This document shows, piece after piece, positions 15,669 through 23,384 of a DNA stretch of 38,918 nucleotides (within the stretch, counting starts at the first letter, position 1; each line of letters starts with the position of its first letter). Source of the stretch: Nocardiopsis halophila DSM 44494 (GTDB lineage Bacteria; Actinomycetota; Actinomycetes; Streptosporangiales; Streptosporangiaceae); assembly GCF_000341245.1 (NCBI RefSeq), contig NZ_ANAD01000059.1, positions 75,156-114,073 of the forward strand, written 5' to 3'. A model generated the notes under the pieces. It was not told where the DNA came from and ran no database searches. It saw nothing but the letters and a program-made list of their open reading frames with translations. The position numbers were made by a program, and so were the translations under genes.

Positions 15669-16966
15669 CACGCACCTCCCCACACGGTCGACTTGGCATG
15701 GTCGAACGGGCACCCGCCCTGTTCGAAGTGGTCGATGTACTCCTGCCGGAAGTACTTGATCGACGACATCACCGGGCTGGTGGCGCCGTCCCCGAGGGCG
15801 CAGAAGGAGCGGCCCAGCAGGTTGTCGCAGATGTCCAGCAGCTTCTCCAGGTCGGCCTCGGAGCCCTCGCCGGCCTCCAGCCGGTCCAGGACCTGGACCA
15901 TCCAGTAGTTGCCCTCGCGGCAGGGCGTGCACTTGCCGCAGGACTCGTGGGCGTAGAAGGCGATCCACCGGCCCACCGCCCGGACCACGCAGGTGGTCTC
16001 GTCGAAGATCTGCAGCGCCCGGGTGCCGAGCATGGACCCGGCCGCGCCCACCGACTCGAAGTCCAGCGGGGTGTCCAGGTGCTCGTCGGTGAAGATCGGG
16101 GTGGACGAGCCGCCGGGGGTCCAGAACTTCAGCTCGTGCCCGGCGCGGATCCCCCCGGCCATGTCCAGCAGCTCGCGCAGGGTCACCCCCAGCGGGGCCT
16201 CGTACTGGCCGGGCCGCGTGACGTGGCCGGACAGCGAGAAGAACCCGAACCCGGCGGACTTCTCGGTGCCCATGGAGGTGAACCACTCGGCGCCGTTGGC
16301 CACGATCGCGGGCACCGTGGCGATGGACTCCACGTTGTTGACCACGGTCGGCGAGGCGTAGAGCCCGGCCACCGCGGGGAAGGGCGGCTTGAGCCGCGGC
16401 TGGCCGCGGTAGCCCTCCAGCGAGTCCAGCAGCGCGGTCTCCTCGCCGCAGATGTAGGCCCCGGCCCCGGCGTGCACCACCACGTCCAGGTCGAAGCCGC
16501 TGCCGAGGATGTCGGTGCCCAGCAGTCCCGCGGCGTAGGCCTCCTCCACGGCGCGCCGCAGCCGCCGGATGACGTGCAGCACCTCGCCGCGCACGTAGAT
16601 GAAGGCCTGGTTGCTGCGGATGGCGTAGGAGGAGATGATCACCCCCTCCAGCAGGGTGTGCGGGCTGGCCATCATCAGCGGGATGTCCTTGCAGGTGCCC
16701 GGCTCGGACTCGTCGGCGTTGACCACCAGGTAGCGCGGGTTGGGGTTGTCCGCCGGCAGGAAGCCCCACTTCATGCCGGTGGGGAACCCGGCGCCGCCGC
16801 GGCCGCGCAGGCCCGAGGTCTTGACCTTCTCCACCAGGGCGTCGGGCTCCATCGACAGGGCGGTGCGCAGCGCCCGGTAGCCGCCGGCGGCCCGGTAGCC
16901 CTCCAGGGTGGGGGCGTCGGGGCGGTCCCAGTTGTCGGAGAGGACGGGGGTGAGCGTCGTCGTCAC
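15668..16966 (-). CDS. nuoF: NADH-quinone oxidoreductase subunit F (NADH/FMN site)
   Basis: Oxidises NADH with FMN and passes electrons to cluster N3. 432 aa. Gly-rich FMN/NADH-binding loops are seen at residues 53-64 ([12 protein letters not shown]) and about 167-180 ([14 protein letters not shown]). N3 ligands are Cys 343, 346, 349 (S-C-G-K-C-T-P-C-R) and Cys 389. GTG 16966 overlaps the nuoE stop as GTGA, with GAGGAGG about 8 nt upstream. The frame ends in T-V-W-G-G-A, encoded by one copy of a 15-bp repeat. Confidence 0.96.
15675..15689. repeat. 15-bp direct repeat, copy 1 (end of nuoF)
   Basis: CCTCCCCACACGGTC on the + strand. On the coding strand this copy encodes the C-terminal T-V-W-G-G of NuoF and also supplies the Shine-Dalgarno of the bridging ORF. 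Confidence 0.85.
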
Positions 16967-17658
16967 TGTCCGGCCTCCTCACCGGCGCCGGCGTCGCCCG
17001 GGGCGGGCGCGGTCCAGCCGCGCTCGCGGGCCAGCCGCAGCCCCTCCAGGGACGGCCCCGCCGCCTGCGGGCCCTCGTCGGCGCGCCCGTCGGAGAACCC
17101 GGCGAGCACCCGGGAGGCCTCCTTCCAGGTGCAGACCGACCCCGGGCCGCGGGTGGGGCGCACGTCCCGGCCCAGGCGCAGGCCGTCGACCAGCTCCTTG
17201 GCGCTGTCGGGGGTCTGGTTGTCGAAGAACTCCCAGTTGACCATGACGACCGGGGCGAAGTCGCAGGCCGCGTTGCACTCCACGTGCTCCAGCGTGACCT
17301 TGCCGTCCTCGGTGGTCTCGTCGTTGCCCACCCCCAGGTGCTCCTTGAGGGCGGAGAAGATCTCGTCGCCGCCCATCACCGCGCACAGGGTGTTGGTGCA
17401 CACGCCCACGTGGTAGTCGCCCACCGGGCGGCGCTTGTACATGGTGTAGAAGGTCGCCACCGCCGTGACCTCGGCCGCGGTCAGCCCCAGCTGATCGGCG
17501 CAGAAGCCGATCCCGGCGGTGCTGACGTGCCCCTCCTCGGCCTGCACCAGGTGGAGCAGGGGCAGCAGCGCCGAGCGCGCCTTGGGGTAGCGGGCGATGA
17601 TCTCCTTGGCGTCGACCTCCAGCCGCGCCCTGGTCTCCTCGTCGAAGGTCCTCGTCAT
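16963..17658 (-). CDS. nuoE: NADH-quinone oxidoreductase subunit E (2Fe-2S)
   Basis: Thioredoxin-fold 2Fe-2S subunit that carries N1a beside NuoF. Ligands are Cys 87, Cys 92 (C-T-N-T-L-C) and Cys 128, Cys 132 (C-N-A-A-C). 231 aa: the core ends near residue 175 and is followed by a Gly/Ala/Glu-rich tail of about 55 residues, longer than in E. coli. ATG 17658 is preceded by GGGGAGGG. Its start overlaps, as ATGA, the stop of an 11-codon ORF that itself overlaps the nuoD stop. Confidence 0.96.
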   Translation of the reverse strand: MTRTFDEETRARLEVDAKEIIARYPKARSALLPLLHLVQAEEGHVSTAGIGFCADQLGLTAAEVTAVATFYTMYKRRPVGDYHVGVCTNTLCAVMGGDEIFSALKEHLGVGNDETTEDGKVTLEHVECNAACDFAPVVMVNWEFFDNQTPDSAKELVDGLRLGRDVRPTRGPGSVCTWKEASRVLAGFSDGRADEGPQAAGPSLEGLRLARERGWTAPAPGDAGAGEEAGQ

Positions 17659-17690
17659 CGGGGCCCTCCCCTCTCCGCTGGCTCCGTCAC
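17655..17690 (-). CDS. 11-codon ORF bridging nuoD and nuoE (putative)
   Basis: GTG at 17690 overlaps the nuoD stop (GTGA) and the TGA at 17657-17655 overlaps the nuoE start (ATGA). The peptide would be 11 residues ([11 protein letters not shown]) and the nuoE Shine-Dalgarno lies inside it. It is too short to judge as a protein. It is listed because the same arrangement occurs at two other junctions of this operon. Confidence 0.2.
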
Positions 17691-18988
17691 CGGTCCACGC
17701 CTCCCATCACGGGGTCGATGCTGGCCACCGCGGCGATCACGTCGGCGACCGTCCCGCCCTCGCACATCGCCGCCACCGCCTGCAGGTGGGTGAACGAGGG
17801 GTCGCGGAAGTGCACCCGGTGGGGCCGGGTGCCGCCGTCGCTGACCGCGTGGCAGCCCAGCTCGCCCTTAGCGCTCTCCACGGCGGAGTAGGCCTGGCCC
17901 GAGGGCACGCGGAAGCCCTCGGTGACCAGCTTGAAGTGGTGGATGAGCGCCTCCATGGAGCCGCCCATGATGTGCGCGATGTGGTCCGGGGAGTTGCCCA
18001 GGCCGTCGGCGCCCAGGGCGAGCTTGGCGGGCCAGCCGATCTTGGGGTCGTCCACCATGACCGGGCCGGGCTCCAGCTTGTCCAGGCACTGCTCGATGAT
18101 CCGCAGGCTCTGCTCCAGCTCGGCCACGCGCACCCGGTAGCGGGCGTAGACGTCGCCGCCCTCGGAGACCGGGATGTCGAACTCGTAGTCCTCGTAGCCG
18201 CAGTAGGGCTGGGCCTTGCGCAGGTCCCAGGGCAGGCCCGAGGCGCGCACCAGCGGACCGGTCACGCCCAGCGCCATGCACCCGGCCAGGTCCAGGTGGG
18301 CCACGTCGCGGGTGCGGGCCAGGTAGAGCGGGTTGGCGTCGAGCAGCTTGCGCAGGGTCGCGATGCGCTCGGGCATCTCCTTGAGCAGCTCGCGGATCTT
18401 GCCCACGGCGCCGGAGGGCAGGTCTTGGGAGACCCCTCCGGGGCGGATGTAGGCGTGGTTCATCCGCAGCCCGGTGATGAGCTCGAAGATGTCGAGCACC
18501 ATCTCCCGCTCGCGGAAGCCGTTGGTCATCACCGTGGTGGCGCCCAGCTCCATGCCGAACGTCGCCATCGCCACGAAGTGCGAGGACATCCGGTTGAGCT
18601 CCATCATCAGCACCCGGATGACGTTGGCCCGCTCGGGGATCTCGTCGGTGATGCCCAGCAGTTTCTCCACGGCCAGGCAGTACGCCGTCTCGTTGAAGAT
18701 CGGCGTGAGGTAGTCCATGCGGGTCACGAACGTGGTCCCCTGGGTCCACGTCCGGAACTCCATGTTCTTCTCGATCCCGGTGTGCAGGTAGCCGATGCCG
18801 ACGCGCGCCTCGGTGACGGTCTCGCCGTCGAGGGTGAGGATGAGCCGGAGCACCCCGTGGGTGGAAGGGTGCTGCGGCCCCATGTTCACCACCAGCCGCT
18901 CGGCCGAGCTCGCCTGCGCCGCCGCGACGACCTCGTCCCAGTCGCCGCCGGTGGCGTCCACGTGCTCCTCGGTGGCCTGTGCGCTCAT
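17687..18988 (-). CDS. nuoD: NADH-quinone oxidoreductase subunit D (49-kDa type)
   Basis: Forms the quinone pocket with NuoB; related to the large subunit of NiFe hydrogenases without the metal site. 433 aa. G-P-Q-H-P-S-T-H-G (residues 37-45) and Y-L-H-T-G-I-E-K (68-75) are the quinone-site loops; the C-terminus D-P-V-M-G-G-V-D-R is the family's usual end. ATG 18988 has a strong G-rich ribosome binding site (GAGGAGGGAGG) about 7 nt upstream. It is a separate gene from nuoC, unlike the nuoCD fusion of E. coli. Confidence 0.97.
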
Positions 18989-19035
18989 GGCCGCGCCTCC
19001 CTCCTCGCCCGGTCGTGCTCGCGTGGGGTGCTCAT
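18985..19035 (-). CDS. 16-codon ORF bridging nuoC and nuoD (putative)
   Basis: ATG 19035 overlaps the nuoC stop (ATGA) and the TGA at 18987-18985 overlaps the nuoD start (ATGA). The predicted peptide ([16 protein letters not shown]) is very basic. No separate ribosome binding site is evident, so it would be translated by re-initiation after nuoC. Confidence 0.28.
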
Positions 19036-19777
19036 GCGTAGGACCTCCGCTCGTCCGGCGGGGGAACGGTCGCCCCGCGGTACTCCACCGGGATGCCGCC
19101 CAAGGGGTAGTCCTTGCGCTGCGGGTGGCCGTGCCAGTCGTCGGGCATCTCGATCCGGGTCAGGGCGGGGTGGCCGTCGAAGACGATCCCGAAGAAGTCC
19201 CAGGCCTCCCGCTCGTGCCAGTCGTTGGTCGGGTACACCCCGGTCGCCGAGGGGATGTGCGGGTCGGCGTCGGGGCAGCAGGTCTCCACCCGCACCTCGC
19301 GGTTGTGGGTGATCGACCGCAGGATGTAGGTCGCGTGCAGCTCGCGCCCGGTGTCGTCGGGGTAGTGCACCCCGGTCACCCCCAGGCACAGCTCGAAGCG
19401 CAGGTCCTCGGCGTCGCGGAACCGGCGCAGCACCTCGGGCAGGTGCTCCCGGCGCACGTGGAAGGTGATCTCGCCGCGGTCGACCACCACCCGCTCAACG
19501 GCCTGGCCGTAGCCGGCGGGGGCGTCGGCCAGCGCCTGCTCCAGGGCGTCGGCCACCGCGTCGAAGCCGGCGGTGCGCGGGTCGCCGGGGTCGGTGTAGG
19601 GCCGCTCGGCGCCGGGCGCCACGGTGCGGCGGACCCGCAGCCGGCCGTAGCCGGAGGTGTCACCGGTGTCGCCGGCGCCGAACATGCCGGTGCGCGTGAC
19701 CGGCGCCTCGAGCCGCTCGCGTCCGGTACGCTCGGGCAGGTCGTCGGCGGGCGTGTGGCCGGCCCCGTTGGACATGC

Positions 19778-19781
<4 letters not shown>
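19032..19781 (-). CDS. nuoC: NADH-quinone oxidoreductase subunit C (30-kDa type)
   Basis: Peripheral-arm subunit that packs against NuoD. 249 aa. The family signature is clear: [16 protein letters not shown], then P-D-D-W[11 protein letters not shown]. The first 70 residues (Gly/Asp-rich, with V-T-R-T-G-M-F-G) are an N-terminal extension typical of actinobacterial NuoC. ATG 19781 overlaps the nuoB stop as ATGA; a second in-frame ATG lies two codons on. Reading further upstream would be shadow of nuoB. Confidence 0.96.
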
Positions 19782-20338
<557 letters not shown>

Positions 20339-20395: not shown

Positions 20396-20755
20396 TCAGT
20401 CCCATTCCAGGCCTCCGCGGCGCCATTCGTAGGCGTAGGCGATCGAGACGTTCACCAGGAAGAGGACCATCGCGATGAGGCCGAACAGGCCGAGCGCGTC
20501 GAAATGGACCGCCCACGGGTAAAGGAAGATGATCTCGATGTCGAAGACGATGAAGAGCATCGCCGTGAGGTAGTACTTGATGGTGAACCGGCCGCCGCCC
20601 GCGGGCTGCGGGGTCGGCTCGATCCCGCACTCGTAGGCCTGGAGCTTGGCGCGGTTGTACCGCTTGGGGCCGGCGATGCTGCCGACGACCATCGATACGA
20701 CCACGAACGCGGCGCCGATCCCGCCGAGCACGAATACGGGTGTGTACAGCTCCAT
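20396..20755 (-). CDS. nuoA: NADH-quinone oxidoreductase subunit A
   Basis: First gene of the nuo operon; small membrane subunit near the quinone chamber. 119 aa, three helices (about residues 6-28, 62-84, 88-109). The conserved loop Y-E-C-G-I-E-P (41-47, Cys 43) and helix F-D-I-E-I-I-F-L-Y-P-W-A (71-82) are diagnostic. The ATG has only a weak purine stretch (AAGGGGA) about 10 nt upstream. The preceding 100 bases hold a hairpin and a Rex/CRP-like operator. Confidence 0.96.
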   Translation of the reverse strand: MELYTPVFVLGGIGAAFVVVSMVVGSIAGPKRYNRAKLQAYECGIEPTPQPAGGGRFTIKYYLTAMLFIVFDIEIIFLYPWAVHFDALGLFGLIAMVLFLVNVSIAYAYEWRRGGLEWD

Positions 20756-20770
20756 CGGTGGACGTCCCCT

Positions 20771-20848
20771 TCATGACGGGCGTGCGGATGCACGCCCGCT
20801 TGTGATCGCTTTCACGTGGGCGGCCGGCGTGGGCCCCTCGCTCGCCAT
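20771..20848 (-). CDS. 25-codon leader ORF between the reductase gene and nuoA (putative)
   Basis: ATG 20848 has GGAGGGG right upstream, overlapping the stop region of the reductase gene. The frame runs 25 codons across the Rex-like site and the hairpin and stops 15 nt before nuoA. The peptide (starting M-A-S-E-G-P-T-P-A-A-H) has no recognisable features. Chance ORFs are common at this GC content. Confidence 0.18.
   Translation of the reverse strand: MASEGPTPAAHVKAITSGRASARPS
20777..20798. other. 9-bp perfect hairpin upstream of nuoA
   Basis: Arms CGGGCGTGC (20777-20785) and GCACGCCCG (20790-20798) close a 4-nt loop. It could be a weak terminator after the reductase gene, a 5'-UTR stem in the nuo transcript, or an mRNA processing site. 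It has no T-run. Confidence 0.5.
20800..20817. promoter_or_regulatory. Rex-like (or CRP-like) operator upstream of nuoA
   Basis: TTGTGATCGCTTTCACGT has the exact length and spacing of the Rex operator TTGTGAA-N4-TTCACAA and matches 11 of its 14 fixed positions. It also reads as TGTGA-N6-TCACG, the CRP/FNR-type consensus less one base. It lies 45 nt upstream of the nuoA start. A stronger site of the same form lies upstream of the neighbouring reductase gene. Confidence 0.5.
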
Positions 20849-20856
20849 CGCCCCTC

Positions 20857-22161
20857 CTAGGACGTGGGCGCCATCCGCGACATGCCGTTGATGACGCGGT
20901 CCATGGCGTCCCCGTGGGACGGTTCGGTGAGGTTGGCCAGCATCTTCAGCGCGAACCGCATCAGGGTGCGCTGGGGCAGGCCGTAGCGGGTCGCGTACTT
21001 CATGAACTCGGGGTTGCCGATCATCTTCACGAAGTACCGGCCCAGCGTGTAGTAGCCGCCGTAGGCGTCGCGGAGCACGTCGGGGTAGCGCATCAGGGTG
21101 CGCTCGCGGGTCTGCACGGTCGGGCGGGACAGCGCCTGCACGGCCACGTCGGCGGCGATCGCCCCGGCCTCCAGCGCGTAGGCGATGCCCTCGCCGTTGA
21201 AGGGGTTGACCATGCCGCCCGCATCGCCGACCAGCATCAGCCCGCGCGAGTAGTGCGGCGTACGGTTGAAGCCCATGGGCAGGGCGGCACCGCGCACGCC
21301 CCCGCGACGGTTCTCCTCGGTGAAGCCCCACTCCTCGGGCATGCTCTGCGTCCAGCGCTTGAGCAGGCTCCGGTAGTCGACCTCCTGGAAGGCCGACGTG
21401 GAGTTGAGGATGCCCAGGCCGACGTTGCAGGTGCCGTCGCCGACGCCGAAGACCCAGCCGTAGCCGGGCAGCAGCGTGCGTCTGCCGCCGGTGTCGTCCC
21501 ACAGCTCCAGCCAGGACTCCAGGTAGTCGTCGTCGTGGCGGGGGCTGTCGAAGTAGGTGCGCACGGCCACGCCCATCGGGCGGTCGTCGCGCTTGCGGAT
21601 GCCCAGGGCCACCGACAGCCGGGAGGCGTTGCCGTCCGCGGCGACCACCAGCGGCGCCCGGTAGCGCACCTGCTCGCCGTCGGGGCCGGTGGCCACCACG
21701 CCCTGCACCCGGCCGGTGCGCTCGTCCACCAGGGGCTCGCGCACGTTGGTGCGCTCCAGCAGCTTGGCGCCGCAGGCCCGGGCGCGCTCGGCCAGGATGA
21801 GGTCGAAGTCGTAGCGGGTGCGCACGAGCCCGAAACCGGGGTAGGAGGCCAGCTCGGGCCAGGGCAGTTCCAGGCGCACGCCGCCGCCGATGATGCGCAG
21901 GCCGCGGTTGCGGATCCAGCCGTCGCCGTCGAAGGGAACGCCCAGCGCGGCGAGCTGCTTGACCGCCCGCGGGGTGAGCCCGTCGCCGCACACCTTCTCG
22001 CGGGGGAAGGAGGTCTTCTCCAGCAGCAGCACGTCCAGGCCGGCACTGGCCATGTGGCAGGCCGCGGCGGAGCCGGCGGGCCCGGCCCCGACGATGATCA
22101 CGTCGGCTTCGAGGTCTGCGGTGGCCCGCCCGGAGGGGGCGTCGGGTGCGGTGGCGCTCAC
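20857..22161 (-). CDS. Geranylgeranyl reductase family FAD protein (MenJ-like)
   Basis: A flavoprotein reductase that saturates isoprenoid double bonds. 434 aa. FAD dinucleotide motif V-G-A-G-P-A-G-S-A-A (24-33), the family's R-E-K-V-C-G-D-G-L-T-P (54-64), G-Y-G-W-V-F (233-238) and the second FAD motif G-D-A-G-G-M-V-N-P-F-N-G-E-G-I (312-326). In mycobacteria the homologue MenJ hydrogenates one isoprene unit of menaquinone and sits near menG and a polyprenyl synthase gene; the same partners flank it here, so a menaquinone role is the best inference. Alternatives are reduction of geranylgeranyl lipids. The GTG start has no strong ribosome binding site. A Rex operator lies 100 nt upstream. Confidence 0.85.
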   Translation of the reverse strand: MSATAPDAPSGRATADLEADVIIVGAGPAGSAAACHMASAGLDVLLLEKTSFPREKVCGDGLTPRAVKQLAALGVPFDGDGWIRNRGLRIIGGGVRLELPWPELASYPGFGLVRTRYDFDLILAERARACGAKLLERTNVREPLVDERTGRVQGVVATGPDGEQVRYRAPLVVAADGNASRLSVALGIRKRDDRPMGVAVRTYFDSPRHDDDYLESWLELWDDTGGRRTLLPGYGWVFGVGDGTCNVGLGILNSTSAFQEVDYRSLLKRWTQSMPEEWGFTEENRRGGVRGAALPMGFNRTPHYSRGLMLVGDAGGMVNPFNGEGIAYALEAGAIAADVAVQALSRPTVQTRERTLMRYPDVLRDAYGGYYTLGRYFVKMIGNPEFMKYATRYGLPQRTLMRFALKMLANLTEPSHGDAMDRVINGMSRMAPTS

Positions 22162-22259: not shown

Positions 22260-22281
22260 CCTTGTGAAGCCCTTCACAAGG
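22260..22281. promoter_or_regulatory. Rex operator upstream of the MenJ-like gene
   Basis: A perfect 10-bp inverted repeat with a 2-nt centre. Its core TTGTGAAGCCCTTCACAA (22262-22279) agrees at all fixed positions with the Rex consensus TTGTGAA-N4-TTCACAA. Rex is the NADH/NAD+-sensing repressor of respiratory genes in actinobacteria and Firmicutes. The site is 100 nt upstream of the reductase gene and directly downstream of a possible -10 box (TAGACT at 22293-22298, minus strand), a position that would block transcription. Confidence 0.8.
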
Positions 22282-22292
22282 CCTCGCCCCGA

Positions 22293-22298
22293 AGTCTA
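22293..22298 (-). promoter_or_regulatory. Possible -10 box of the MenJ-like gene
   Basis: TAGACT on the minus strand, ending 11 nt before the Rex operator. No clear -35 element is visible. If used, the transcript would start near 22286 and have a 5' leader of about 125 nt containing the Rex site. Confidence 0.35.
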
Positions 22299-22452: not shown

Positions 22453-22484
22453 AAAGGCACCAGAACATCAGTTCTGGTGCCTTT
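22453..22484. terminator. Bidirectional intrinsic terminator between menG and the MenJ-like gene
   Basis: Arms of 14 bp match perfectly (22453-22466 with 22471-22484) around a 4-nt loop. The stem begins AAA and ends TTT, so it can act on both strands. It lies downstream of menG and probably terminates that transcript before the Rex-controlled promoter. Confidence 0.85.
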
Positions 22485-22560: not shown

Positions 22561-22632
22561 TCCCCGTTGATCTCGGGAAAAGCGACCCTACAAGGGCGGG
22601 TTTAGGGGCGTTTTTCCCGAGATCAACGGGGA
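22561..22632. repeat. Long palindrome, possible dispersed intergenic repeat or terminator of menG
   Basis: Two arms of 21 bp (22561-22581 and 22612-22632) are perfect inverted repeats around a 30-nt centre that can itself fold partly (CCCTA...TAGGGG). The arms carry GATCTCGGGAAAA and its complement. It lies 33 nt after the menG stop. The shape resembles palindromic intergenic repeats or a short inverted-repeat element; only one copy is in this window. Confidence 0.7.
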
Positions 22633-22664
22633 GGGGCCGGGGATGGTGTCACCGACCTCAGTGG

Positions 22665-23384
22665 TCAGTACAGCTCGGCCGGGCGGTAGCCGCGGTGCAG
22701 CGCCACCACACCCAGGGTCAGGTTGCGCCAGGCCACCCGGGTCCACCCGGCGCGCTGCATCCGCGCGGCCAGCCCCGGCTGGTCCGGCCAGTCCATGATC
22801 GACTCCGACAGGTAGCCGTAGGCCCCCGTGTTGTCCGAGAACAGCCCGGCGATCCGGGGCAGCGCGGCCATCAGGTACCCGGAGTAGACCCGGTCCACCG
22901 CGCGCACCGGGATATGGCTGAACTCGCAGATCACGACCCGTCCGCCGGGCTTGGTCACCCGGTACATCTCGCGCAGGGCGCGGTCGGTGTCCTGCACGTT
23001 GCGCAGCCCGAAGGAGATGGTGACCGCGTCGAAGGCGGCGTCCTCGAAGGGCAGCTCCAGGGCGTCCCCGGCCACGCAGGCCACGCCCCCCGACACCGCC
23101 CCGCCGCGCCGGCGGGCGCCCTCGCTCAGCATGCCCTGGGAGAAGTCGCAGGCGATCACCCGCGCGCCGTTCCCGGTCAGCGCCTCGGAGGAGGTGCCCG
23201 TGCCGGCGGCCAGGTCGAGCACCAGCTCGCCGCTGTAGGCCTCGACCGCCCGCACGGCGGCCCGCCGCCACTGGCGGGCCTGTCCGAGCGAGAGCACGTC
23301 GTTGAGCAGGTCGTAGCGGCCGGCGATGCTGTCGAACATCGCGGCGACGTCGGCGGGCGACTTGTCGAGTTCGGCGCGGGTCAT
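22665..23384 (-). CDS. menG: Demethylmenaquinone methyltransferase
   Basis: SAM-dependent C-methyltransferase for the final step of menaquinone synthesis (UbiE/COQ5 family). 239 aa, a normal length. [16 protein letters not shown] (17-32) is the family signature, L-D-L-A-A-G-T-G-T (56-64) the SAM-binding motif I, and [10 protein letters not shown] a second UbiE signature. The ATG has no ribosome binding site; TAGGCT ends 6 nt upstream, so the mRNA is probably leaderless. Two hairpins follow the stop. Confidence 0.95.

Follow-up and report, generated by a model that had tools for sequence, protein, structure and literature searches.

Rex of Streptomyces avermitilis directly represses nuoA1-N1, atp, rex-hem, cyd, wblE and ndh2, and its operator at nuoA1-N1 has been defined by footprinting, EMSA and ChIP (PMC5355995). 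A second point of reference is Actinomyces oris, in which a ggr gene lies in the nuo locus beside menaquinone genes (PMC5478893). The locus described here belongs to a window of 38,918 nt (the whole stretch of DNA that was analysed) from Nocardiopsis halophila DSM 44494, and it appears to share with S. avermitilis nuoA1-N1 a repressor of the Rex family, the consensus TTGTGAA-N4-TTCACAA and the target operon (PMC5355995). The palindrome at 22260-22281 is very probably a Rex operator, placed at the promoter of a predicted unit that begins with a geranylgeranyl-reductase-family gene (GGR) and continues through nuoA-N. This reading, already proposed in the preliminary description, is supported by the presence of rex in the genome, by the conservation of the palindrome at 110/110 family loci and by its absence from three genomes that have lost rex.

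The palindrome, its promoter and the Rex protein

The 22-bp inverted repeat at 22260-22281, CCTTGTGAAGCCCTTCACAAGG, pairs at 10+10 positions around a central CC that is not palindromic. Rereading of the window sequence upheld the full-consensus core that had been claimed for it: the 18 nt at 22262-22279, TTGTGAAGCCCTTCACAA, have 0 mismatches to the Rex consensus, with agreement at 14/14 fixed positions. The genome-wide motif search found exactly 1 perfect match in the 6.3-Mb genome, against about 0.0002 expected from base composition. Matches with up to 3 mismatches were expected by chance at 0.06 per window in dinucleotide shuffles; shuffled upstream regions never gave a match with fewer than 3 mismatches in 2200 trials, and a reversed-pattern control gave 0 matches in 71 genomes.

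On the minus strand the order is menG/ubiE, a terminator-like hairpin, the promoter with the operator, GGR, nuoA, nuoB, nuoC, nuoD and nuoE. The features are the following.

22665-23384, minus strand: menG/ubiE demethylmenaquinone methyltransferase, the upstream gene, on the same strand as GGR
22453-22484, minus strand: intrinsic-terminator-like hairpin downstream of menG, 14-bp stem
22293-22298, minus strand: predicted -10 box TAGACT of the GGR unit (TAGACT in 95/110 relatives)
22262-22279 (arms to 22260-22281), no strand assigned: probable Rex operator core, 14/14 fixed positions
20857-22161, minus strand: GGR, geranylgeranyl-reductase-family flavoenzyme (MenJ-like), likely menaquinone side-chain reductase (TIGR02032, 260 bits)
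20800-20817, no strand assigned: second, weaker Rex-like site between GGR and nuoA, 3 mismatches
20396-20755, minus strand: nuoA, first complex I subunit gene (PF00507, 2e-35)
19778-20338, minus strand: nuoB
19032-19757, minus strand: nuoC, approximate extent (NuoC match over residues 167-406 of the open frame 19032-20255; start approximate)
17687-18988, minus strand: nuoD
16963-17658, minus strand: nuoE

The operator begins 13 nt downstream of the -10 box (22298-22293, minus strand), and its end is 100 nt from the GTG start (22161) of GGR; both measured distances agree with the position that had been reported, upstream of the reductase and just past a possible -10 box. The hairpin at 22453-22484 would part the GGR unit from menG; with an average of 1.0 such site in shuffles of the region, its count is not significant. 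A long inverted repeat, CCGTTGATCTCGGGAAAA...TTTTTCCCGAGATCAACGG (window 22563-22634), lies just downstream of menG and near this hairpin. The gap between GGR and nuoA is 101 nt in the window and up to about 245 nt elsewhere in the family, and no terminator was found by prediction in it. The second Rex-like site, TTGTGATCGCTTTCACGT, which the preliminary description had not mentioned, is located in this gap; it is present at 17/27 Nocardiopsis-group loci, the window's included, and at 0 of the other 83 family loci.

GGR scores 260 bits against TIGR02032, above the cut-off of 159, and 266 bits against the NCBI MenJ equivalog NF045655, far under the cut-off of 700. GGR is a member of the wider geranylgeranyl reductase family. 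The GGR of the nearest named relative, Nocardiopsis chromatogenes, shows 93% identity. Considering the family and the gene neighbourhood, GGR is a likely menaquinone side-chain reductase.

A Rex operator calls for a Rex protein, and one rex gene is present in the genome; its product reaches 378 bits against the Rex equivalog NF003992 (cut-off 226) and contains both PF06971 and PF02629, the DNA-binding and NAD-binding domains. The RKD of the recognition helix aligns with Arg48/Lys49 of Thermotoga maritima Rex, so that the Arg-Lys pair which touches operator DNA in the T. maritima complex is conserved (PMC8836258). The rex promoter carries its own Rex-type site, TTGTGCGTACTTTCACAA, and 30/31 of the rex loci examined have a comparable site with 1-2 mismatches. 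The genome scan that had been recommended as a check gave 22262-22279 as the sole perfect site, and sites with 1-2 mismatches before rex-hemA, a Pyr_redox_2 flavoprotein gene (ndh-like), the ATP synthase genes and a WhiB-like (wblE-like) gene. In another family member, a second perfect site likewise precedes a gene for a Pyr_redox_2-type flavoprotein. No recognisable Rex-type site was found in the fetched flanks of the 3 cydA loci located in the window's genome (L304, L305 and L306), although in Streptomyces cyd counts among the classical targets of Rex. A Rex-like site with 2 mismatches was also noted at L010:5711-5728 (G000:C62:10710-10727), with no obvious gene start adjoining.

Conservation of the site and its absence from rex-loss genomes

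Each of the 110 family GGR loci that were fetched keeps the palindrome at 14/14 positions, which disposes of the concern that close relatives might keep the gene and lose the site. TAGACT is the predicted -10 box at 95 of these loci, and a TAGACT-like box is found 12-16 nt upstream of the site in 108/110, a position near the promoter that would fit a block of transcription. The distance from the site to the start codon ranges from about 7 to 240 nt, and 0/122 flanking columns exceed 95% conservation. With an invariant site at a fixed spacing to the -10 box, a start codon at variable distance and no flanking column at 95%, the pattern, as read from these alignments, is that of a transcription-factor site tied to a promoter and not of general sequence similarity.

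Some asymmetry was observed within the family: 109/110 loci have a sense-strand G at operator position 8, either C or G occurs at position 11, and the operator is followed by a block G-x-ACGAR. A symmetric Rex site requires neither the G at position 8, which varies across the class, nor this block. The asymmetry at position 8 counts against the Rex reading, given that a symmetric Rex dimer provides no account of it.

Outside the family, 49 representatives carry rex and have enough upstream sequence, and in 44 of them the site is present at 0-2 mismatches, in most cases preceded by a TAGACT-like box. The site is missing from the other 5, two of which (the Streptomyces-like G136, and G239) are also without an adjacent nuoA. 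At the class level, 8 genomes were at first counted as rex-less, and only the 3 real losses were scored as rex-minus: G125, G140 and G296 (loci L295, L297 and L298), from three families, in which neither search found rex. In these genomes a glutaredoxin-like gene runs straight into hemA, and the same gene precedes rex in genomes that carry it; since this synteny is intact without rex, the gene is truly missing there, and its absence is not an assembly gap. The other 5 apparently rex-less genomes all keep the site. They comprise G231, in which a fragment of rex lies at the end of a contig (scored as rex-carrying), and 4 assembly gaps that were left out of the rex test, with contigs that begin inside hemA (G185, G328) or an assembly without hemA (G183, G191). 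The site occurs in 0/3 rex-loss genomes against 44/49 rex-carrying representatives (Fisher p = 0.0025, a test that counts genomes as independent, which is true only roughly). A wider hunt for rex loss, in the G125 family and the G296 genus, found one genome each. The conservation data suggest that almost all of the actinomycete class has retained the operator in this position.

Proposed mechanism and alternative explanations

In the proposed mechanism, the operator would lie just downstream of the -10 box of a promoter that starts the GGR-nuoA-N unit, and Rex bound at about +6 to +24 would block initiation or promoter escape. When NADH accumulates, NADH-bound Rex would leave the DNA and the unit would be expressed, a prediction that comes from applying the known biochemistry of Rex to the geometry of the putative operator. 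Complex I and the presumed menaquinone-tail reductase would then be made together when NADH builds up.

An alternative concerns the extent of the unit. Rex could regulate GGR only, nuo having its own promoter in the GGR-nuoA gap; such an arrangement would be in line with the second Rex-like site found in the gap of the window and of 16 other Nocardiopsis-group loci, and with the size of the gap itself, 101 nt here and larger in other members. We consider it unlikely, taking into account that no terminator is predicted in the gap, that most family members are without the second site, and that where GGR is lost or detached it is nuo, and not GGR, that retains the Rex site. G060 lacks a recognisable GGR ortholog (best E 2e-8), and its menG-nuoA interval contains the same promoter and operator, GGTCTAGACT...TTTGTGAAGTCGTTCACAA, about 180 nt upstream of nuoA. 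In Streptomyces, GGR is detached, at 1.6-2.4 kb from nuoA where both were seen; no site was found within 700 nt upstream of the Streptomyces GGR, and a 2-mismatch site precedes nuoA by 84-148 nt in 27/27 loci with nuoA in reach, most of these sites being the exact sequence footprinted in S. avermitilis. Since the site stays with nuoA in both situations, the operator follows nuo, and GGR is, by these gene arrangements, a passenger of the putatively Rex-controlled unit where it lies between operator and nuo. The suggestion that the nuo operon might be under the same operator gains from the adjacency of GGR and nuoA without a predicted terminator between them, and further from the GGR-less G060 and from the repression of nuoA1-N1 by S. 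avermitilis Rex (PMC5355995).

The identity of the binding protein was also considered. The core holds TGTGAAGCCCTTCACA, a full match to the CRP-type motif TGTGA-N6-TCACA, and a regulator of the CRP/FNR family could bind it in place of Rex. However, the outer TT...AA, unneeded by CRP, is invariant in 110/110 loci and nearly so at the rex promoter sites, the genes preceded by similar sites are those known as Rex targets, and the site is missing from all 3 rex-loss genomes, which makes a CRP/FNR-type regulator very improbable. A leader RNA hairpin (UUGUGAA-GNNS-UUCACAA) acting post-transcriptionally would account for a site past the likely transcription start, and its 7-bp stem could pair; we give this almost no credence, as the 110 sequences contain no compensatory arm changes and it is the primary sequence that is invariant, the spacing to the start codon is far from constant, and loss of the site accompanies loss of rex. 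A different dedicated regulator, suggested by the very strict sequence, was set aside: the rex-hemA site of the family is strict as well, and the site is gone with rex. Binding by Rex remains our preferred reading of the palindrome.

Comparison with known Rex systems

The conservation described above suggests that control of complex I by Rex, demonstrated in a single Streptomyces species, is widely kept in actinomycetes, and that a geranylgeranyl-reductase-family gene is the first gene of this widely kept Rex-nuo unit. Menaquinone tail saturation serves species classification, and we know of no settled reason for the partial saturation of menaquinone tails in actinomycetes. It is possible, at a little under an even chance, that across Actinomycetes one NADH sensor governs the joint production of complex I and the enzyme of menaquinone-tail saturation; in that case the chemical form of the quinone pool would be a redox-regulated trait rather than a fixed chemotaxonomic marker.

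In the part of the Actinomyces oris account that covers the locus, the ggr-nuo arrangement resembles that of N. halophila and redox regulation is not described (PMC5478893). Our literature search for a link between Rex and geranylgeranyl reductase found none; Ravcheev 2012 and Brekasis 2003 were outside this search and may mention GGR as a Rex target. The preliminary description had called the circuit little described, which holds for the quinone reductase and not for nuo, whose control by Rex is known in S. avermitilis (PMC5355995).

The targets of S. avermitilis Rex with counterpart sites in N. halophila are rex-hemA, ndh-like, atp and wblE-like genes; cyd, also a target in S. avermitilis, differs in that the cydA loci of N. 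halophila are without a recognisable site in the fetched flanks (PMC5355995). The S. avermitilis operator, TTGTGACCTGCTTCACAT, is directly upstream of nuoA1, between -35 and -10 (PMC5355995), whereas in N. halophila a perfect palindrome follows the -10 box and precedes GGR, which is probably the first gene of the unit. This difference in operator placement counts against the Rex reading. That Rex controls nuo was established earlier, in Streptomyces (PMC5355995); what appears to be new is that the site stands ahead of GGR-nuo across the class and that it is lost together with rex.
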